A stretch of DNA of 64,000 nucleotides from Chelativorans sp. YIM 93263 (GTDB taxonomy: Bacteria > Pseudomonadota > Alphaproteobacteria > Rhizobiales > Rhizobiaceae). Every line of letters starts with the position of its first letter. Position 1 is the first letter of the stretch. The notes under the pieces were generated by a model that searched no databases, was not told where the DNA came from, and worked only from the letters and a program-made list of their open reading frames with translations. This document shows positions 9,898 to 18,913 of the stretch, one piece after another. Position numbers and translations under genes: made by a program. The DNA is taken from contig NZ_JAKCWP010000006.1 in the NCBI RefSeq assembly GCF_028767125.1, forward strand, positions 124,001 to 188,000, written 5' to 3'.

Positions 9898-10686
9898 ATG
9901 ATCGAAGCAAAGAATGTGAGCGTTTCCATTGGCCGCAAGCCTATCCTGCGGGGCGTGAACGCTTCCACCGCGCCGGGCGAGATAACGGCTATCGTCGGCC
10001 CGAACGGCTCCGGCAAATCCACGCTGATCAAGGCGCTCTCGGGGGACATAACCTATTCGGGCACAATCAGCTTCAACGGCCGGGACCTGGCCGAGATGCG
10101 CACGGGCGAGGCGGCCGCCCTGCGTGCCGTGTTGCCGCAGGCGACGACACTTTCCTTTCCCTACACGGTGCACGAGGTGGTACGGCTCGGGCTCTTGGGC
10201 GGGCGTTCGGGAGCGCCCCACGGGCTGGCAGATCTGCCCGAGCGCGCGCTCGCGCGGGTGGATCTCGCAGGATTTGCGGGCAGGTTGTATCAGGAGCTTT
10301 CCGGCGGTGAACAGCAGCGCGTTCAACTCGCACGCGTTCTCTGCCAGGTCTGGGCGCCCGTGCTGGAGGGTAGCCCGCGCTATCTCCTGCTCGACGAGCC
10401 GGTCTCCAGCCTGGACATCAAGCACCAGCTCCTGGTGATGCGCATCGCGCGCGAATTCGCCCAACAGGGCGGAGGTGTGGTCGCGGTCCTCCACGACCTC
10501 AACCTCATGGCGGCTTTCTCCGACCGAGCGATCCTCATGCAGCATGGGCAAAGCGTGGCCGCCGGCTCACCCCAGGAGGTGATGCAGGACGAACTTCTGT
10601 CGGAGGTTTTCGAGTGCCGATTAAAGGTCGGCACCGTCCCTACCGGGGTAACACCTTTCCTGTTGCCGCAGGCGGCCTCCATTTAG
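9898..10686 (+). CDS. hmuV: Haem ABC transporter ATPase HmuV
   Basis: A 262-residue ATPase: Walker A GPNGSGKST (about residues 37-45), signature ELSGGEQQRVQLAR, Walker B YLLLDEPVSSLD, and switch histidine in AVLHDLNL. The insertion CQVWAPVLEGSPR before Walker B is typical of HmuV. Start at ATG 9898, not the long upstream extension that overlaps hmuU. It ends the hmuP-S-T-U-V operon and converges with the HisD-like gene 11 bp away, with no room for an independent terminator. Confidence 0.93.
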   Translation: MIEAKNVSVSIGRKPILRGVNASTAPGEITAIVGPNGSGKSTLIKALSGDITYSGTISFNGRDLAEMRTGEAAALRAVLPQATTLSFPYTVHEVVRLGLLGGRSGAPHGLADLPERALARVDLAGFAGRLYQELSGGEQQRVQLARVLCQVWAPVLEGSPRYLLLDEPVSSLDIKHQLLVMRIAREFAQQGGGVVAVLHDLNLMAAFSDRAILMQHGQSVAAGSPQEVMQDELLSEVFECRLKVGTVPTGVTPFLLPQAASI

Positions 10687-10697
10687 GCAGCCGCTGC

Positions 10698-12044
10698 CTA
10701 TCGCCGCCCGAGCGCTTTTTCCCGTAGCGGCGAAACGGCGTTCGCGTGCCCATCGAAACCTTCGTAAACTGCGAAGCGGTGGGTATGCGGCGCCATCTCC
10801 GCATATCCCGTAGCCGAGACGTGCCCCACCGAGGCGCTCTTCATGAAATCGTAAACGCCAAGCGGCGAGCCGAACCGCGCGGCCCCCGCCGTCGGTAGGA
10901 CGGCATTCGGCCCCATGACATAATTCGCGATGGAGCCCGCCGCATGCTCGCCGAGCAGGATCTCCGAGGCATTATTGATATGGTTGAGGTGCTCGAAAGG
11001 CACCTGCGAGAGAATCTGCAGGTGTTCCGGCGCGTAATCGTTGACGAAGGCGTACGCCTCCTCAGGCGAACCGGCCAGTACGATGCCGCCATTGGTGCCA
11101 CCCAGCACTGCTCTGGAAAACTCGACGCGCCCTGCCCCCATCTCCCGCCAGTATCCGGGGATGGCTGCCCGCGCCGCCGCCGCGAAATCCGCGTCCCACG
11201 TCACCAGATAGACGGCGCTGTCCGCCCCATGCTCGGACTCGATCAGGAGGTCGAGCGCGGCGAGTTCCGGGCTCGTGGTCGCATCCGCCAGCACAATGCT
11301 CTCGCTCGGCCCCGCCGGCACACGCGAGGCGATCCGCCCCTGCAAAAACCGTTTCGCCGCGACCACCCAGGGGCTGCCCGGGCCTTCGAACTTGACGCAA
11401 CGCGGTATCGTCTCGGTGCCGTACGCCGCCGCCGCGACAGCCACCGCCCCACCGGCCTTGTAGACATGCGTGATGCCGGCAATCTCGGCCGCAACCAGCG
11501 TCGCGTCGTCTATGCCGCCATCGGGCTTGGGCGGCGTCAGCATGATCGGCTGCTTCACTCCCGCGACAACTGCGGGGATCGCCGTCATCAGTGCGACGGA
11601 AGGAAAGGAGCCCTTGCCGCGCGGCACATAGAGCGCGGCGCTGTCGACCGGCGTATGCCGCCCGCCCACGAGCACGCCCGGCCGGATCTCCTTCATCCAC
11701 ATTTCCTGCGGCCGCTGCGCCTCGTGATAGCGGCGGATATTGTCTGCCGCATATTCCAGGGTTCGGATCAGGTCCGGGTCCAAGGCGGCGCGGGCGCGCG
11801 CGAAATCCTCCGGCCCAGCGGCAATGCTCCCCGCGTCGAGGTCCGCACCATCGAATTTCCGGGCAAAGCGTATCACCGCCGCATCGCCTTCCGCGCGCAC
11901 GGCGTCCACGACCGGAGCAACCTTGTCCAGATAGTCCTGCAGGTCTTCTTCCGGACGGACGAGCAGTTCAGCCCGCTGATCCGGAGAAAGCTCCGCCAGC
12001 ACATGGAGCGCCACATCATCGGCTGTAAGGCGTTTCGCGTTCAT
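10698..12044 (-). CDS. HisD-family dehydrogenase, divergent
   Basis: A 448-residue member of the histidinol dehydrogenase superfamily, NAD-dependent enzymes that oxidise an alcohol to a carboxylate in two steps. The fold signatures are intact (VYKAGGAVAVAAAAYGTETI, VPAGPSESIVLAD, NDYAPEHLQIL with the catalytic Glu340-His341 pair). Aligned from memory with E. coli HisD, the zinc ligands Gln259, His262, Asp360 and His419 correspond to Glu269, His272, Asn374 and His433, a Gln-to-Glu and Asp-to-Asn exchange; the NH of TNHVLPT is NA here. It is the last gene of a set with a NitT/TauT importer and a dimethylformamidase-like enzyme, so a catabolic alcohol or amino-alcohol oxidation is more likely than histidine synthesis. 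Relatives include sulfopropanediol dehydrogenase (HpsN). Confidence 0.8.
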   Translation of the reverse strand: MNAKRLTADDVALHVLAELSPDQRAELLVRPEEDLQDYLDKVAPVVDAVRAEGDAAVIRFARKFDGADLDAGSIAAGPEDFARARAALDPDLIRTLEYAADNIRRYHEAQRPQEMWMKEIRPGVLVGGRHTPVDSAALYVPRGKGSFPSVALMTAIPAVVAGVKQPIMLTPPKPDGGIDDATLVAAEIAGITHVYKAGGAVAVAAAAYGTETIPRCVKFEGPGSPWVVAAKRFLQGRIASRVPAGPSESIVLADATTSPELAALDLLIESEHGADSAVYLVTWDADFAAAARAAIPGYWREMGAGRVEFSRAVLGGTNGGIVLAGSPEEAYAFVNDYAPEHLQILSQVPFEHLNHINNASEILLGEHAAGSIANYVMGPNAVLPTAGAARFGSPLGVYDFMKSASVGHVSATGYAEMAPHTHRFAVYEGFDGHANAVSPLREKALGRR

Positions 12045-12076
12045 GCCATTCCTTCCAGTGAATTGGCGAAGGCGCG

Positions 12077-12868
12077 CTACGACGCGCCTTCGATCGCCAT
12101 CATTTTCAGCGTCTCTTCGCGGATGTCATGCAGCACCCCGCGTTTCAGCTCCGCAAAGTGGGATTCGGTGATCACCTCGTAGGGCCGCGGACGCGGTATA
12201 TCGACGTTGAGGTCGTTCTTGATGCGCCCGGGCCTTGACGACAGTACCACCACCCGATCTGCCAGGAACAGCGCCTCGTCGACGTCGTGCGTCACGAAAA
12301 GAACCGTCGATTTGTGCTCATCCCAGACCTTGAGCAGAAGCTCCTGCATCATGCCTCGCGTCTGTGCGTCGAGTGCGCCGAAGGGCTCGTCCATCAAAAG
12401 CACGGACGGGCGGTAGACCAGCGCCCGCGCAATGGCGACGCGCTGGCGCATTCCGCCGGAGAGCTGCTTCGGCAGCGCCTTCTCGAACCCGGCGAGCCCA
12501 ACGGTCTGAATGTATTCCGAAACAAGCTCGCGCCGCTCGGCACGGCCCATCCGGCTCTTCTCCAGCGCGAAGTCGATGTTACGCTCCACCGTCATCCACT
12601 CGAAGAGCGAGTAATTCTGGAAGACGAAACCGCGGTCGCGGCCAGGCCCGATGATCGGCCTGTCGTCCAGAAGAAGCGTGCCGGATGTGGGCTCGGTAAG
12701 GCCGCCGACGATCGACAACAACGTCGATTTTCCGCAGCCCGAGGTCCCCACGATGGCCACGAACTCGTTCGTCGCCACGTCGAGGTTGAGCCCATCGATA
12801 ACGGTGAGCGGACCGCCCTCGGCCTCGAACACCATGTTGAGGTCGCGTATGGACAGTTTCGGTTTCAT
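12077..12868 (-). CDS. NitT/TauT-family ABC transporter ATPase
   Basis: A 263-residue ATPase of the SsuB/TauB/ThiZ group: Walker A GTSGCGKST, Q-loop FVFQNYSLFEWMTV, signature QLSGGMRQRVAIAR, Walker B VLLMDEPFGALD, and H-loop FVTHDVDEALFLADR. ATG 12868 overlaps the permease stop by 4 bp (ATGA), a sign of translational coupling; a longer frame upstream overlaps the permease and is rejected. It energises uptake of the compound bound by the solute-binding protein of this operon. Confidence 0.9.
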   Translation of the reverse strand: MKPKLSIRDLNMVFEAEGGPLTVIDGLNLDVATNEFVAIVGTSGCGKSTLLSIVGGLTEPTSGTLLLDDRPIIGPGRDRGFVFQNYSLFEWMTVERNIDFALEKSRMGRAERRELVSEYIQTVGLAGFEKALPKQLSGGMRQRVAIARALVYRPSVLLMDEPFGALDAQTRGMMQELLLKVWDEHKSTVLFVTHDVDEALFLADRVVVLSSRPGRIKNDLNVDIPRPRPYEVITESHFAELKRGVLHDIREETLKMMAIEGAS

Positions 12869-13668
12869 CGCGTCGTCTCCGCCCAGCCGAACATCTTTCG
12901 TCCGCCGACCTTGAACAGATAATCGGTGGCGAAGCCGAGAAGGCCGATAAAGATCGTCCCGAAGATAATCGTATCGGTTGCGAAATAGCGCTGCGCATCC
13001 ATGATGCGCCGCCCCAGCCCGTCCTGTGCGGCGACGAGCTCCGCAACCACCAGATAGGTCCATGTCCAGCCGATCGTGATCCGGAACGTATCCCAGATTC
13101 CCGGCATGGAGGCAGGCAGGACGATGCGCCGGAGGATCTCGCCATTGGAGAAACCGAGCGTCTGACCGGCCCTGATGAGGGTCATGTCGACGGCTTTGGT
13201 GTTGTTCATGATCATCAGCACCTGCTGGAAAAATGTGCCAATGAACAGGATCAGGATTTTCTGCGCATCACCGATGCCCGCCCACAAGATGGAAAGCGGG
13301 ATCAGCGCCACCACCGGCATGTAGCGGATGGTGGAAACGAGTGGTTCCAGCGCGCCTTCGACAAGCCGATAATTCCCCATCAAAATGCCGATGGGAAGAG
13401 CTAGCACCGTAGCAGCGGACCACCCTGCAACGATCCGGTAGATCGAGACGGAGGCGTCGCGCCAGAGGATGCCCTCCTCGATCTGCCGCCATCCTTCCGC
13501 GACGACCGATTGCGGCGAGGGAAGGAAAAGTGGCCGGACATAGCCGGCCGTCGTCACCCACCACCAGGCGATCAGCAGAACGAGTGGAAACGCGATGCTC
13601 GCGCCGACATATAGCCGGCGCGAGATCGGCGCCCTGAGGCGCATGAGTGAAGAGCTTCTCCGTGTCAT
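12865..13668 (-). CDS. NitT/TauT-family ABC permease
   Basis: A 267-residue inner-membrane protein of the BPD_transp_1 fold with about six membrane segments. The EAA-like loop is in AGQTLGFSNGEILRRIVLPA, followed by SMPGIWDTFRITIGWTWTYL. It overlaps both neighbours by 4 bp (ATGA), so the binding protein, permease and ATPase are translated as a unit. The substrate is unknown; related importers carry taurine, alkanesulfonates, nitrate, bicarbonate, riboflavin or thiamine precursors. Confidence 0.9.
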   Translation of the reverse strand: MTRRSSSLMRLRAPISRRLYVGASIAFPLVLLIAWWWVTTAGYVRPLFLPSPQSVVAEGWRQIEEGILWRDASVSIYRIVAGWSAATVLALPIGILMGNYRLVEGALEPLVSTIRYMPVVALIPLSILWAGIGDAQKILILFIGTFFQQVLMIMNNTKAVDMTLIRAGQTLGFSNGEILRRIVLPASMPGIWDTFRITIGWTWTYLVVAELVAAQDGLGRRIMDAQRYFATDTIIFGTIFIGLLGFATDYLFKVGGRKMFGWAETTR

Positions 13669-14624
13669 TCCGCCGCCAGATCGACAATGGATGTGTCCAG
13701 CGCCTCCGAGACATTCGGATAGCTCGGGACGTTATCCGGGTTGATCTCCATCATGATGGAGCCAATGGAGTCATAGGCCTCCTGGAAAGGGCCGGAGAAC
13801 TGTTCGATATTCTCCTCGAGATTGAACAGGCGCACGCCCTCGAACGCCACCTGGAATTGGTCAATGGGGCTGCCGACAGCATTGGCGATGATCTGTCCGC
13901 CCTCGTCCGGATTATCACGGATGAAGGAGACCGCGTCGTCCCAAGCCTTTACTATGGCCGCCAACGTGTCCTTGTTCTCTTCGATGTAGGACGTTTCTGC
14001 CACGAGCAGATCGCTGATCAGACCAGGTGCGGCGCTGGCGTCATAGATCACCTTAAAGTTGTTGTCCTCGGCAAGAGCCGTCGAGATATAGGGTTCGTAG
14101 GACACCGCGGCATCCACACGGCCGGCAATGGCTGCCAGACCCGCCTCGGAGGCGCCCATCGGCACCGGATCGATATCGTCGATCGACAGATCGTTCTCGC
14201 GCAGCGCATAATTGAGCAGAAGGTCGCTCGTCGCGCCCAATTCATACGCAACGCTCTTGCCCTCGAGATCGGAGACGCTGTCGACGCCCTCACCAGCGAT
14301 GATCGCATCGGCTTCGTAGGCGGCGTCCATGATCATGAAGCCCTTTAGCTCGATGCCGCTGTTCAGGAGGTTGATCATGGTGTTGGTGGCCGCGGCCTGA
14401 ACCTCGATGTTGCCGCTGACCAGCGCCGCATTGACGTCCTGGTCCCAGTTGAAGTTGATAAGTTCGACCTCGACACCACGATCTTCGAAATAACCTTTCT
14501 CGGCGGCGACCCACAGAGGCCCGTAACCGAGCCACGGCTGAAGACCGATGCGGACGGGCTCGGCCGAAGCCATCGAGACCGTCGCGGACGTTGCCAGCAA
14601 GGCAAAAAGCAGTTTCTTGAGCAT
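13665..14624 (-). CDS. NitT/TauT-type periplasmic binding protein
   Basis: A 319-residue protein with a signal peptide (MLKKLLFALLATSATVSMASA, cleavage near residue 21). The mature start EPVRIGLQPWLGYGPLWVAA and EKGYFEDRGVEVELINF are typical of the SsuA/ThiY group. Hinge motifs such as GVDSVSDLEGKSVAYELGAT follow. It captures the substrate for the adjacent permease and ATPase. It starts 28 bp after the dimethylformamidase-like gene in the same direction, which suggests the imported compound is, or yields, that enzyme's substrate. Confidence 0.88.
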   Translation of the reverse strand: MLKKLLFALLATSATVSMASAEPVRIGLQPWLGYGPLWVAAEKGYFEDRGVEVELINFNWDQDVNAALVSGNIEVQAAATNTMINLLNSGIELKGFMIMDAAYEADAIIAGEGVDSVSDLEGKSVAYELGATSDLLLNYALRENDLSIDDIDPVPMGASEAGLAAIAGRVDAAVSYEPYISTALAEDNNFKVIYDASAAPGLISDLLVAETSYIEENKDTLAAIVKAWDDAVSFIRDNPDEGGQIIANAVGSPIDQFQVAFEGVRLFNLEENIEQFSGPFQEAYDSIGSIMMEINPDNVPSYPNVSEALDTSIVDLAAE

Positions 14625-14652
14625 TTTCGTGTTCTCCTCTTTCGTTTGGTTT

Positions 14653-16701
14653 TCAGTTTTTGGCCGCCTGCCCCTGCGACAGGCGGCGGAGCAGGTTGCA
14701 GGTTATCCGCCCTACGTCGTTCATTCGTCCGTTTTCCGGCAGCGCACCGCACCAGGCGACCGAGCTTGCCGAGAAGATTATCGCGCCGTTGGGCAGATGT
14801 CGCAGGGTCATCTCGGCGCAGCGGCGTTCCGCTTCTTCCGTTTCGCCGCCCGAATACCAGCGCGTGGGATCGTGAAGATAGCTTTGCGGAAAACCATCGG
14901 CCCGCGCAATCACCAGCGTGTCGGGATGTGTGCCCAGATGCAGGTCAGTTGCGTCAACCTCGTAACCCGCCGCCCCGCCGAGCACCATGCCTTCCCCGCC
15001 GAAGTTCTCGCCGCCAACCCCTTCGAAAAGCCAGGTGCATTCGGGCCGCCGGCTCTCCTCCGTGCGGGTAAAGCTCCGGGCCGCCTCAAACCCCATCAGC
15101 GAAATCGCGACACCCACCAGCGAAAACTCGCCGCGCCCGCGGTGGCGCAGGAAGCCGCCGGGCTCATTGGTGATGGAAAGCGCCTGCTCGGCGACGGAGC
15201 CATCCCAGGTACGCCCCGCTTCCAGCGGTGAGCGCCTGAGCTCCATCAGATCCCCATCGAAGGCAGCAGTATTGGCAAACCCATTTCCTCCGAGATAGGC
15301 GATGCTGCCGCCAGCCGCGGTAAATGCACGTATCGCCTCTTCCATCTCAACTGACATGTATTCGGGATGGCTTCCCGTCATCAGCGCCTGATGGCCTTCG
15401 AGGCAGGCCAGACCGTCCGCATGCAGGTCATGGTCGGTCACGAGATCGAAGGCGATCCCGTTCTCATGACAAAACCGCAGCAGATGGAGATCGACCGGCA
15501 GATTGTGCGGACAGCCGCACAGCGGATAACGGTAGTCATCGCGCAGCGTCCCCTTGGGCTTCCTGTAGGAGGTGATCGACACACCGCTCAGGTCGTTGTG
15601 ATAATCGTAAAGCGAGCGCAACCCGTTCTCGCGGGCGAAGACATGGCCCCGGTCGCTGCATTTCCACTCGAAAAGATGCGGCGGCAAAGCTTCGTCTGCA
15701 TAGGCGAGATAGGTGGCCGTAGGCACGAGAAAGACAATGGGTGCCTTGGGCCGGCTGGAGCGGACGAAGAAAACGATCCGCTCGGATCCCTGCCGGGTCG
15801 CGACCTCGAAGGCATAGATGCCGGGCTCCGCCTCTTCCGGAACTTCCGCCCGGAACGAAGCCGGCCACTCCAGCGGTGCCATATCGTCGTCGTGGCAATG
15901 CACGGCGTCGTAATGATCCGGCACGAGACGCGGATCAAAGCTGCTCCCGTCCCATCGGGGTGACGTGACGCAGAAGGTAGGCTGGTTGAGAATGTCGAGC
16001 TTCGGCCCCGCCCCGCCCTCGGGCGCAAGGGCGCCGTGATGCAGCCGCGTCGGAAAGCGCCATAAGTAATCGCCTCCATTCGCCTGTAGACGGATCCGCC
16101 CCCATTTCGCGTTGAGCGTCGGCGCGTCCTCATCCGCCGAACTGCCGAAGAGAACCGGCTCGGGAGACGCATTCTGTGGGATCGGATCAAGGGAACGCTC
16201 CCACCGCCACGGCGCCAGCCGGTCGTGCGAGCGCGCCGATAGGCGCAACCCCCCGTCACCCCAGACGAGATCGAAATCGATCCAGACATTTTGGGGAACA
16301 GGTTCCGGGCCAAGCAGAAGTCGGCCACCGGTCTTCAGCGAAAGAGCGCCATCCTCCAATTCCAGGCGCAACTCCCCGACCGCAAGGACGGTCCGGCGGC
16401 CCGGATTGTGTGTCAATAAGAGCTCGAAGGCGATCGCCCGCACCGCTCCGGCTTTCGCCATCTCTCCCGCGCTCAAGCGCAGATACGAGCCCTGCTCGAA
16501 AGTGCGATGCGCTGGCTTCTCCAATTCTGAAACGGGCCAGTCGACCCGCTTTTCATCCGGCAGATCGAGGCGCAAGACACGCACGGCCTCGACAGGAGCC
16601 GCGCTGGAGAGGTGAAGGTCTAGCACCGCGCCGGACCGCACGCTCCATGGCGTGGTGTAGCCCGCCACGGGCATGGCATCGTGGGCGACCGCGCGCCTCA
16701 T
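14653..16701 (-). CDS. N,N-dimethylformamidase large-subunit homologue
   Basis: A 682-residue protein whose C-terminal two thirds match the dimethylformamidase beta-subunit-like domain: LVPTATYLAYAD (about 325-336), SLYDYHND (363-370), DLVTDHDLHADG (419-430), then MTGSHPEYMSVEMEEAIRAF (441-460). In the characterised DMF hydrolase a tyrosine in the HxEY segment is one ligand of a mononuclear iron with a second Tyr and a Glu; Tyr448 is the candidate here, the others cannot be assigned by eye. The N-terminal 220 residues look like a jelly-roll module. No gene for the small alpha subunit lies nearby. It leads a likely operon with a NitT/TauT importer and HisD-like dehydrogenase and faces a LuxR regulator. 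Substrate inferred to be an amide, not necessarily DMF. Confidence 0.8.
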   Translation of the reverse strand: MRRAVAHDAMPVAGYTTPWSVRSGAVLDLHLSSAAPVEAVRVLRLDLPDEKRVDWPVSELEKPAHRTFEQGSYLRLSAGEMAKAGAVRAIAFELLLTHNPGRRTVLAVGELRLELEDGALSLKTGGRLLLGPEPVPQNVWIDFDLVWGDGGLRLSARSHDRLAPWRWERSLDPIPQNASPEPVLFGSSADEDAPTLNAKWGRIRLQANGGDYLWRFPTRLHHGALAPEGGAGPKLDILNQPTFCVTSPRWDGSSFDPRLVPDHYDAVHCHDDDMAPLEWPASFRAEVPEEAEPGIYAFEVATRQGSERIVFFVRSSRPKAPIVFLVPTATYLAYADEALPPHLFEWKCSDRGHVFARENGLRSLYDYHNDLSGVSITSYRKPKGTLRDDYRYPLCGCPHNLPVDLHLLRFCHENGIAFDLVTDHDLHADGLACLEGHQALMTGSHPEYMSVEMEEAIRAFTAAGGSIAYLGGNGFANTAAFDGDLMELRRSPLEAGRTWDGSVAEQALSITNEPGGFLRHRGRGEFSLVGVAISLMGFEAARSFTRTEESRRPECTWLFEGVGGENFGGEGMVLGGAAGYEVDATDLHLGTHPDTLVIARADGFPQSYLHDPTRWYSGGETEEAERRCAEMTLRHLPNGAIIFSASSVAWCGALPENGRMNDVGRITCNLLRRLSQGQAAKN

Positions 16702-16741
16702 CGGATGCGCCTTTGCAATGGCTGCAGCTTCGGCATAACCG

Positions 16742-16812
16742 AATACCCCTCGAAGTGCTGCATCACACGCTATAAAAACAACGATAAGGGGTATATACCT
16801 CCATCGGGGTAT
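16742..16812. promoter_or_regulatory. Repeated GGGGTAT sites in divergent promoter
   Basis: Between the dimethylformamidase-like gene and the LuxR gene, ataccccT (16743-16750, inverted), the near-palindrome ggggtatatacctc (16788-16801, one mismatch) and ggggtat (16806-16812) share one core. A LuxR-type activator of the divergent genes could bind here. Confidence 0.4.
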
Positions 16813-16826
16813 GGGAGAACGCAGGG

Positions 16827-17612
16827 ATGCTCAAGGCCCTTGGCGAGACGATCGGCACGGCAGGCAGCGATGAATTCTACGCCGCCATGGCCCGCTATCT
16901 GCGCCATTGCATGGATTTCGACAACATCATCGTGATCCTCTACAATGGCGCCGAGCGGCCGGTGGTCGCCTATAGCTGGATACGCGGTCCGGATGTCTTT
17001 AGCTATCTGGAGCGGGACTATCTTCCGGCTGCCTATCTCCTCGACCCGGTCTATCATTTCCACCTGAACCAGCGCCGGCCGGGCATTTATCGCCTGCTCG
17101 ACATTGCTCCGGATAATTTCCGCCGCAGCCGCTATTTCAAATGGTATTACGGCCGCATCGGCATCATCGACGAAATCTCGGTCTTGCTGCCCGTGGAAGA
17201 CAACACCACCATCACGATCTCAATGGGCCGGGACGGATCTTCGGGTCAGCACTTTTCCGCGCGTGACGAAGAAGGCCTGCGTGCGCACGAACCGGTGATC
17301 ATGCCACTGCTGAAGAAACATTGGCAGGCGCAAGAGCAGCCGGAGCGTCAGCGCCTTGATTCCGCATCCATCGTCGACAGCCTGATCGCCGCCATGCGCA
17401 CACACAAGGACGTCACCCTCACGAGACGGCAGGCCGAGGTGGCGCTGCTCATCCTTCAAGGCCACTCCTCACCCTCGATCGGGCTGCACCTCGGCATCAG
17501 CACGCAAACCGTGAAAGTCTTCCGCAAACAGCTCTACCGGAAGTGCTACATCTCCTCCCAGGCCGAGCTCTTCAGCCTGATGATGCCGATGCTGGAGCGC
17601 CCGCGCGGGTAG
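16827..17612 (+). CDS. LuxR-family transcriptional regulator
   Basis: A 261-residue regulator. The C-terminal 60 residues hold a LuxR/GerE helix-turn-helix (TLTRRQAEVALLILQGHSSP, then SIGLHLGISTQTVKVFRKQL). The N-terminal 150 residues look like a GAF/autoinducer-type sensor (CMDFDNIIVILYNGAERPVV) without recognisable acyl-homoserine-lactone residues. It is transcribed divergently from the dimethylformamidase-like operon. In Paracoccus aminophilus the DMF hydrolase genes are likewise controlled by a LuxR-family activator, DmfR, which supports a matching role. It converges with the GH63 gene, leaving 2 bp. Confidence 0.85.
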   Translation: MLKALGETIGTAGSDEFYAAMARYLRHCMDFDNIIVILYNGAERPVVAYSWIRGPDVFSYLERDYLPAAYLLDPVYHFHLNQRRPGIYRLLDIAPDNFRRSRYFKWYYGRIGIIDEISVLLPVEDNTTITISMGRDGSSGQHFSARDEEGLRAHEPVIMPLLKKHWQAQEQPERQRLDSASIVDSLIAAMRTHKDVTLTRRQAEVALLILQGHSSPSIGLHLGISTQTVKVFRKQLYRKCYISSQAELFSLMMPMLERPRG

Positions 17613-17614
17613 CG

Positions 17615-18913
17615 TCAGATCCTCCCCAACTCCCCGTCCGCGCCGCGCAGGAATTCCAGCACCATTGCGGCGGTCCAGGTGAAACGGTCCCCGCCGCAGG
17701 GCTCGCCGGTCAGCGGATCGTAATACTCGGCAAAGCCGCTCTTTTCTATCAGCGCGAGACTGCCCGCGCGCAGGCTTGCCGCCTGTTCCGAGAGCCCGGC
17801 CGCCTTCAAACCGTCGGCAAGCAGATAGTTGACGATCAGCCAGACCGGACCACGCCAATAGCGCTTGGCATCGAAGAGCGGGTCGGACGGGTCGTGACTC
17901 GGCACCGGATAGGCACAGCGCGTCATAAGCGCTGCGATGCGATCACCGATGGCGCGTGCCCGTTCCTGCGGGATGGCAGCGAGAACGCCCAGCAAACCGC
18001 CCACCGACAAGCTCCGAACAAGGCGGCCGGTTGTACGATCAAGACAGAGATACTGGCCGTCCGCTTCACTCCAGAGGCTTTCCAGCGCCGCAAGCCCCTT
18101 TTCGGCGCGGGAGCGGTTGGCCTCGGCAATGTCCTCGGCACCGAGCATGCCCGCCAACTCCGACAGATCGGCGCAGGAGCGGATGAGGATGGCGTTGAAA
18201 GCCGGATCAACGACGCGAAACGGCGAGGCATTATGGAGCACTGCATTATTCCACGCATGGCCGCGGAAGTGCTCAACCAGCCAGATATAGCGATCGTACT
18301 GTGCCTTTGTCGGTCGGTGGGCTGGATCGGCGTGCTCGACATCGCGTCGCCGATAGGGAGTGATGCCCTCGCGCGGCACGTGCCGGAACGGTTCGTCCCA
18401 ATCGATCGTATTGTCCCGGCCGGACTCCCAAGGGTGGATGACGGCAACGAGCCCCTCCCCTTGCGGGTCCCGCGCGTCATAAAGGAATGCGTGCCAGCGG
18501 TCGATCTTTTCGATCAGGGAGCGTACGCGCGGTGCATAGGCTGTCCGGTCCTGCGAACGCTCGAAAATGCGCCGTGCGGCAAAGCCGGCCACCGGGGGCT
18601 GGGTGATGCCGGAGGTCGGTACCGGTCGGCCCGTCTGCCAGATTTCCGGACCGGGGAAATAGCCCTCGTCCGCCTGGTGAAAGATGATATGCGGCACCAT
18701 GCCATCAGGCCATTGGTGGGCAAAAAGCGTCTCCATCTCCCGCCAGGCACGATCCTCGTCGAGCGCGGCGAGGCCGAGTGCGCTGAGGCAGGAATCCCAG
18801 TTCCACTGAAAAGGATAGAGACCCTTGGTCGGCACGGTATAGTCACCGCGGTCGTTGTCGATAAGGATCTCGGATGCTTGTCTCGCAAGGCGGGTACGTT
18901 CGTTAGGGGTCAT
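17615..18913 (-). CDS. GH63-family glycoside hydrolase
   Basis: A 432-residue cytoplasmic enzyme (no signal peptide) with an (alpha/alpha)6-barrel of the GH63 type. Signatures are YPFQWNWDSCLSALG (near residue 33), HPWESGRDNTIDWDEPF (about 160-176) and YWRGPVWLIVNYLLADGL (about 343-360). These match bacterial mannosyl- and glucosylglycerate hydrolases, which cleave glycosylglycerate osmolytes to hexose and glycerate. As last gene of a LacI-controlled ABC importer operon it probably hydrolyses the imported glycoside. A trehalase or alpha-glucosidase role is an alternative; specificity cannot be read from sequence alone. Confidence 0.8.
   Translation of the reverse strand: MTPNERTRLARQASEILIDNDRGDYTVPTKGLYPFQWNWDSCLSALGLAALDEDRAWREMETLFAHQWPDGMVPHIIFHQADEGYFPGPEIWQTGRPVPTSGITQPPVAGFAARRIFERSQDRTAYAPRVRSLIEKIDRWHAFLYDARDPQGEGLVAVIHPWESGRDNTIDWDEPFRHVPREGITPYRRRDVEHADPAHRPTKAQYDRYIWLVEHFRGHAWNNAVLHNASPFRVVDPAFNAILIRSCADLSELAGMLGAEDIAEANRSRAEKGLAALESLWSEADGQYLCLDRTTGRLVRSLSVGGLLGVLAAIPQERARAIGDRIAALMTRCAYPVPSHDPSDPLFDAKRYWRGPVWLIVNYLLADGLKAAGLSEQAASLRAGSLALIEKSGFAEYYDPLTGEPCGGDRFTWTAAMVLEFLRGADGELGRI

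Follow-up and report, generated by a model that had tools for sequence, protein, structure and literature searches.

What brings a dimethylformamidase (DMFase)-like hydrolase into one operon with a relative of histidinol dehydrogenase (HisD)? The question is raised by positions 10698–17612 of a 64,000-nucleotide stretch of Chelativorans sp. YIM 93263 (contig NZ_JAKCWP010000006.1, positions 124,001 to 188,000), the whole of which is referred to here as the window. An earlier, sequence-only reading had described six genes in this region, the place and strand of which are as it stated: on the minus strand the hydrolase gene, the three genes of a NitT/TauT-type ATP-binding cassette (ABC) importer and the HisD-like gene, with the gene for a LuxR-type regulator divergent from them on the plus strand. 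It assigned them to a single pathway for a small amide-like compound. The account preferred here, which on balance appears probable, is that in these relatives of the root-nodule rhizobia the genes form a side branch of histidine utilisation (Hut), induced by its substrate and serving an amide-bound imidazole alcohol. Both the association with Hut and the changed metal-ligand positions of the HisD-like enzyme, which carries Glu and Asn in place of two of the HisD ligands, are new relative to the earlier account.

The cluster is more than a chance neighbourhood. The hydrolase clade was sampled at 30 loci whose proteins are 41% identical or more along almost their full length, namely the window together with 18, 4 and 7 further loci, the last of these from plasmids. 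A duplicate (L059, of L040) and three loci of ~30–32% identity (L057, L058 and L064) were excluded, three loci within the sample are truncated by contig ends (L039, L042 and L048), and the near-identical pairs L054/L065 and L056/L066 are each counted as two. The HisD-like gene is found in the same locus, within ~9 kb of the hydrolase gene, at 20 of the 30 loci, all three importer genes at 19 and the LuxR gene at 14, its relatives being 57–67% identical. The complete six-gene set is present at 12 loci and the window's exact gene order at 6, recurring in Aestuariivirga (L038), Phyllobacterium (L047), two Rhizobiales isolates (L046 and L052) and on an Ensifer plasmid (L053). The sequence-only reading had proposed looking for its five-gene set in other genomes; the set is co-conserved, which supports the idea of one pathway. 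One Mesorhizobium hydrolase frame (L043, 8001–10082) contains a single in-frame stop and may be broken, mis-sequenced or start elsewhere.

The association is also seen between whole genomes. Where the hydrolase locus has no HisD-like gene, one is present elsewhere in 8 of the 9 genomes tested, the L042 genome having been left out of this test. Among 297 genomes of the order, a HisD of the Glu/Asn clade is encoded in 51, comprising all 6 genomes with the hydrolase clade and 45 of the 291 others (p 2e-5); counted by genus, it is found in 5 of 5 with the hydrolase clade against 17 of 118 (p 1e-4). Other proteins of the DMFase family (best E 1e-40 to 1e-100), which served as a control, are more weakly associated than this, with HisD in 16 of 51 genomes against 35 of 246 (p 0.004). 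The converse fails, since 45 of the 51 HisD genomes have no match of the hydrolase clade, and the hydrolase accordingly seems to be an optional entry step to a pathway centred on HisD.

The metal ligands of E. coli HisD are taken to be Gln259, His262, Asp360 and His419. At the corresponding positions the window protein (10698–12044, minus strand; 448 amino acids; PF00815, 431 bits) has Glu, His, Asn and His, such that the axial Gln and the equatorial Asp are both exchanged, and the same two exchanges recur in all 68 rows of an alignment at 48% identity or more, which includes the window protein twice. Three paralogues in the same genome retain Gln and Asp, as does the solved HpsN. By these residues the HisD-like enzymes form a distinct clade. 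The catalytic pair of HisD, Glu326–His327, is kept (APEHL). Compared with HisD as described in the available parts of PMC5585171 (and, for the metal-ligand types, of PMC11382572), the window enzyme shares the fold, the catalytic Glu–His, the two His ligands and an aromatic residue after the Asp/Asn position, but differs in its Glu/Asn metal positions and in its catabolic neighbourhood. A separate HisD with the usual ligands is encoded in the same genome (L001, the best PF00815 match). The model of the window enzyme is closest to the HisD fold (Z 36.1; HpsN 33.6), although the structure models of this study are mediocre (mean predicted local distance difference test, pLDDT, 63.6 and 67.7), so that their matches are to be read at the level of the fold. 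The proposal that a HisD-family dehydrogenase is the partner of the hydrolase is upheld.

HpsN, which is described together with HpsO and HpsP in PMC11382572 and PMC11131964, is likewise a catabolic HisD-family enzyme, and a short-chain (SDR) and a medium-chain (MDR) dehydrogenase/reductase are found in related loci; in the available parts of those papers C2 is the site of action of the SDR and MDR, and C1 that of HisD. A pathway in which a sulfonated amide would be imported, hydrolysed and oxidised in the manner of HpsN, the 3-dehydrogenase that acts on R-dihydroxypropanesulfonate (R-DHPS) in the degradation of DHPS, was favoured at first because of the TauT-like genes and an HpsO/HpsP-like pair. 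It would suit the NitT/TauT importer with its SsuA-like binding protein, as well as the trio of HisD, SDR and MDR genes in other genomes, which resembles hpsN/hpsO/hpsP. However, HpsN binds its sulfonate through His126 and Lys353, again according to the parts of these papers available, and both are absent from the window enzyme. Lys353 is replaced by Tyr or Phe in 68 of 68 rows, and the HpsN loop GRY(A/S)H by GKG(S/A/F)F (GKGSF in the window; GSAPL in HisD). Moreover, the neighbourhood and the operators are those of Hut. With the HpsN residues absent and hut linkage found, the sulfonate pathway was dropped and is regarded as very unlikely. Sulfonated amides, which were among the candidate substrates of the earlier reading, are unlikely for want of the HpsN sulfonate-recognition residues. 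For two more of its candidates, formamides and pantothenate-like compounds, the present analysis yields no support. Two further HisD paralogues of the same genome, L002 and L004, do have the HpsN Lys, but with the loop GKFPM, and L004 is the closest paralogue to solved HpsN (372.8 bits).

The connection with Hut is apparent from gene content and gene position alike. Urocanase is encoded in 49 of the 51 HisD genomes, the exceptions being G204 and G280, against 103 of the 246 others (odds ratio 34, p 3e-14), whereas for hmgA, a catabolic gene used as control, the odds ratio is 3.5 (29 of 51 against 68 of 246). In 11 of the 51 genomes no more than 15 kb separates HisD from hutU, and in 19 the two genes fall on one contig; hmgA is that close to HisD in 1 of the 29 genomes that have both. 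Urocanase is also present in all 11 whole genomes with the hydrolase that were examined, the twelfth record being a single plasmid. The HutH, HutI, HutF, HutU and HutG families were confirmed on representative proteins, and the other loci were assigned by tblastn. In G250 the genes hutI, hutH, hutG and hutU are followed, in one direction, by the hydrolase gene (L062, 8174–15468; also L148), at a locus that holds in addition HisD, MDR, SDR, kinase-like and LutABC-type genes. A hutI-H-G-U series ending in HisD is found in L140 and L149, HisD is downstream of hut genes in the same direction in L140, L149 and L150, and the HisD cluster abuts a hut operon in L153–L155 and in L130. In G099 (L152 and L061) hut genes, an importer, LldD, a kinase-like gene, MDR, HisD, SDR and the hydrolase gene are contiguous. 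The place of the HisD clade with Hut, and the tie of the hydrolase to it, can be stated with confidence.

The hydrolase (14653–16701, minus strand; PF20254, 210 bits) had been described by the sequence-only reading as an iron-dependent enzyme of DMFase type, and both the fold and the predicted iron-site residues are indeed present. Residues Tyr399, Tyr440, His519, Glu521 and Asn547 of the Paracoccus enzyme, as given in the available parts of PMC7686228, align with Y334, Y365, H445, E447 and N473, all of which are invariant among 13 aligned sequences; from these residues an iron site of two tyrosines and one carboxylate is predicted. The protein is likely to be an active amide hydrolase of the DMFase fold, but its substrate is not readable from the sequence. 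With the Paracoccus large subunit (PDB 6lvb; PMC7686228, available parts) it shares the C-terminal domain family, the Tyr and Glu iron ligands, His519 and Asn547, at an overall Z of 24.2–24.8 and 25% identity in the structural alignment. The closest solved sequence is N-acetyl-(R)-beta-phenylalanine acylase (PDB 8huy; E 9.5e-59, limited to residues 237–680 of the hydrolase), which has the same fold, the model being equally similar to this acylase and to DMFase (Z 24.8 each). The other structural matches listed are mainly LamG-like ones to residues 66–265. A literature search by one term found no paper on the acylase.

Unlike the Paracoccus enzyme, the window hydrolase is a protein of 682 amino acids beside which no small-subunit gene is seen, and its clade is linked to HisD and, elsewhere, to Hut. 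The lack of the usual small subunit had also been noted in the earlier reading. A 146-amino-acid protein encoded beside a Paracoccus homologue gave no significant homologue in the window or the hydrolase loci, but as a query it reaches the solved small subunit itself at no better than E 0.022. The absence may not be remarkable, because the closest solved relative, the acylase, is listed under one molecule name. The Paracoccus locus L146 on pAMI5 is presumably not the described dmf locus. A cluster for the degradation of dimethylformamide or formamide, as in Paracoccus, would account for the fold, the iron-site residues and a linked LuxR-type regulator. It is nevertheless extremely improbable, given that an N-acyl amino acid acylase is just as similar and given the failure of that single weak query to find a small subunit; furthermore, dimethylamine and formate require no HisD. 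A different role for formamide cleavage, which DMFase performs according to the available parts of PMC7686228, would be within the Hut cycle itself, with the hydrolase replacing HutG in the conversion of N-formylglutamate to formate and glutamate and the linkage to HisD being secondary. The place of the hydrolase gene after hutU in L062 is in keeping with this, but the hutG gene of L062 itself adjoins hutU, one gene from the hydrolase gene, and all 8 genomes tried encode a member of the HutG family (PF05013), on which ground replacement was rejected as highly improbable.

In the preferred account, the NitT/TauT-type importer would take up the amide-bound imidazole alcohol and the DMFase-fold hydrolase would cleave the amide, freeing the alcohol. 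The Glu/Asn HisD would then oxidise R-CH(X)-CH2OH with NAD+, giving histidine where X is NH2 (histidinol) or imidazole-lactate where X is OH (imidazolyl-propanediol), and the product would pass into the ordinary Hut pathway, which is encoded elsewhere in the genome (L147). That the substrate of HisD is an imidazole C3 alcohol is held with moderate confidence, whilst confidence about the amide partner is low. For a short operon of the window type, with only the hydrolase and HisD, histidinol would be the best-fitting released alcohol because its oxidation gives histidine directly. The N-acyl amino alcohols suggested in the earlier reading fit this scheme, since they include the favoured class, N-acyl histidinol.

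In other genomes the recurrent companions of HisD are an SDR, a Zn-type MDR, a HutC-like repressor, an LldD-like flavin mononucleotide (FMN) dehydrogenase or LutABC-type genes, a HisC-like transaminase and a protein of ~430 amino acids; none of them was matched in L123, L128, L138 and L142, for example. In these longer clusters the SDR and MDR may invert C2, the LldD-like or LutABC lactate-type dehydrogenase may form imidazole-pyruvate, and the HisC-like transaminase may convert it to histidine. The ~430-residue protein reads like a putative small-molecule kinase, from its HGDAHNANV and DPAFAG motifs. Three copies (L061, 2969–4282; L056, 13945–15234; L062, 3269–4594) have no Pfam match and the L061 copy has no PDB match. 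It is encoded in 18 of the 297 genomes, all 18 of which also have the Glu/Asn HisD.

These companions bear on a variant of the same Hut branch, in which HisD would always act on a 2-hydroxy compound, taking imidazolyl-propanediol to imidazole-lactate, and the hydrolase would act on another amide, for instance an N-acyl-histidine or a dipeptide of histidine, whose product would enter Hut directly. The SDR and MDR beside HisD mirror HpsO and HpsP, which act on C2 hydroxyls, LldD-like or LutABC-type enzymes are encoded nearby, and in L062 the hydrolase gene is downstream of hutU. However, a hydrolase that released histidine directly would have no need of the Glu/Asn HisD that is present in 6 of 6 genomes with its clade. 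Moreover, the kinase-like companion is missing from the window genome and from the genomes behind L035, L037, L038, L046, L047, L048 and L052, and the window locus itself, to which this check was confined, has no SDR, MDR or LldD gene. The variant is considered unlikely, and release of an imidazole alcohol from its amide, followed by oxidation, is still preferred.

Two types of operator accompany these genes. Between the hydrolase gene and the LuxR gene (16827–17612, plus strand; PF00196, 40 bits) a motif search locates a composite operator, ATACCCC-N4-GGGGTAT-ATACCCC with one mismatch (16788–16812, minus strand). It is found with at most two mismatches at 12 of the 14 loci with the LuxR gene and with four at the other two. 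In its own genome it is the sole match at up to three mismatches; of the seven genomes searched, two have a second match, with three mismatches, and G297 has no match, and ten shuffled windows gave no match at up to five. It is presumably the site of the LuxR regulator, and the linked regulator of the earlier reading is thus accompanied by a conserved operator. More distant LuxR relatives (~43%) in Leisingera and Roseovarius adjoin aminotransferases rather than the hydrolase.

The second type is the HutC site, with a measured consensus of TGTA-N2-TACA in the available parts of PMC12977541. The pattern TGT[AC]TA[GT]ACA has 53 matches in 1.61 Mb of collected loci against a shuffle mean of 1.0. 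None of the 53 reaches further than ~10 bp into a labelled gene, and 51 sit where hut, SDR/HisC-like, PotA, HisD, kinase-like, binding-protein or hydrolase genes begin. In L054, L055, L065 and L067, where the hydrolase operon carries a HutC-type gene, such a site lies 61–67 bp before the hydrolase match, and the hut operon of the window genome (L147) has one as well. HutC-type operators, HutC-like regulators and, in other genomes, hut linkage are shared with the Hut/HutC systems in the available parts of PMC5343134 and PMC12977541; the main text of PMC5343134, a study of the HutC regulon, contains neither 'hisD' nor 'histidinol'. In a tolC mutant of Sinorhizobium meliloti 1021, SMa0387 (hisC3), SMa0391–0396, SMa0398 (hisD2) and SMa0402 are down ~8- to 24-fold, in a table that also lists ntrBC, hutU and hutG (PMC2912261, available parts). 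The pSymA locus L068, from another S. meliloti strain, has the same gene set, the SMa tags being equated with its genes by order and names. The hisD2 gene probably belongs to the Glu/Asn subfamily.

Several points weigh against a Hut branch. The hut operon of the window genome is on a different contig with no HisD beside it, and a pattern scan of the window's hydrolase promoter gave no strict-form HutC site. One Chelativorans genome with the hydrolase (L037/G297) lacks the Glu/Asn HisD. A common nitrogen control, and not a common pathway, could be what places these genes near hut, and the importer's relatives among the curated models have sulfonates, taurine and nitrate as their substrates. 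The genomes compared are related, so the Fisher p values overstate their independence; the genome searches scored only the first 3 (hydrolase) or first 5 (HisD) candidates per genome; and the HutC scan covered loci that had been selected for carrying these very genes, some of the loci being overlapping or near-identical. Finally, we know of no abundant natural amide of histidinol, and the substrate itself is one that we infer.

The importer is a complete unit of an NMT1-type binding protein, a TauC-type permease and a TauB-type ATPase, all encoded on the minus strand, which is in agreement with the NitT/TauT type. The periplasmic binding protein (13665–14624; PF09084, 92 bits) is NMT1/SsuA-like and falls under the cut-off of every curated NCBIfam model matched, the best being TIGR01728 (135.5 against 163.5 bits). 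For the TauC-like permease (12865–13668; PF00528) the best such model is TauC, at 156 bits against a cut-off of 342, and for the ATPase (12077–12868; PF00005, scored on the longer frame 12077–13063) SaoA and NtrCD, both below cut-off. From the hydrolase through the binding protein, permease and ATPase to HisD, the gaps are 28, -4, -4 and 32 bp. Hence the 4-bp overlaps of the earlier reading exist between the binding protein and permease and between the permease and ATPase, whereas the hydrolase and binding protein, and the ATPase and HisD, are separated. The cluster is bounded as that reading drew it because the flanking genes are both convergent: a frame of ABC-ATPase type on the plus strand ends at 10686 and a glycosidase on the minus strand ends at 17615. 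The latter (17615–18913) is a glycoside hydrolase that resembles mannosyl/glucosylglycerate hydrolases, scoring 365 bits where the cut-off is 550, and adjoins Ugp/MalK-type ABC transporter genes.

Other neighbours were noted at some of the loci. In L123 (6322–10224) a HisD-like gene is in a run with a PuuE-type allantoinase (540 bits, above cut-off) and an acetolactate-synthase-like thiamine pyrophosphate (TPP) enzyme, and a weaker PuuE-like gene occurs in the HisD or SDR loci L035, L039 and L042. Six Mesorhizobium loci (L040, L041, L044, L045, L049 and L051) have an FtsZ-like gene on one side of the hydrolase and, on the other, genes for a GntR regulator, a glutamine-synthetase-like protein, MurA, a BadF-type kinase and an SIS-domain (MurQ-like) protein. 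A role in cell-wall recycling was considered on account of the FtsZ-like, MurA and MurQ-like genes, but these are treated as mere neighbours, the Mesorhizobium genomes keeping HisD elsewhere. A gamma-glutamyl reading was set aside as not general: ggt and DadA-like genes occur in three Shinella/Rhizobium plasmid loci (L054, L055 and L065), and a glutamate mutase operon in Ensifer.

A literature search combining histidinol or HisD with hut, urocanate hydratase, imidazole-lactate and the S. meliloti tags found no such pathway in the titles or beginnings of abstracts of the papers listed. For the Alphaproteobacteria at large it can be suggested, tentatively and as something a little short of probable, that there is an undescribed front end to Hut, in which a Glu/Asn HisD paralogue would salvage imidazole C3 alcohols, DMFase-fold iron amidases would unmask their amide-bound forms and control would be exerted by HutC or by LuxR and ATACCCC sites according to lineage. 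Concrete tests follow from the scheme, which offers a few candidate imidazole alcohols, an operator of defined sequence and, in a textbook enzyme, an exchange at the metal site. If true, it would give the DMFase fold a further natural role, and a function to a widespread subfamily annotated as histidinol dehydrogenase, to which may be added some of the 376 plasmid records that cover at least 80% of the HisD query, not all of them of the Glu/Asn clade.

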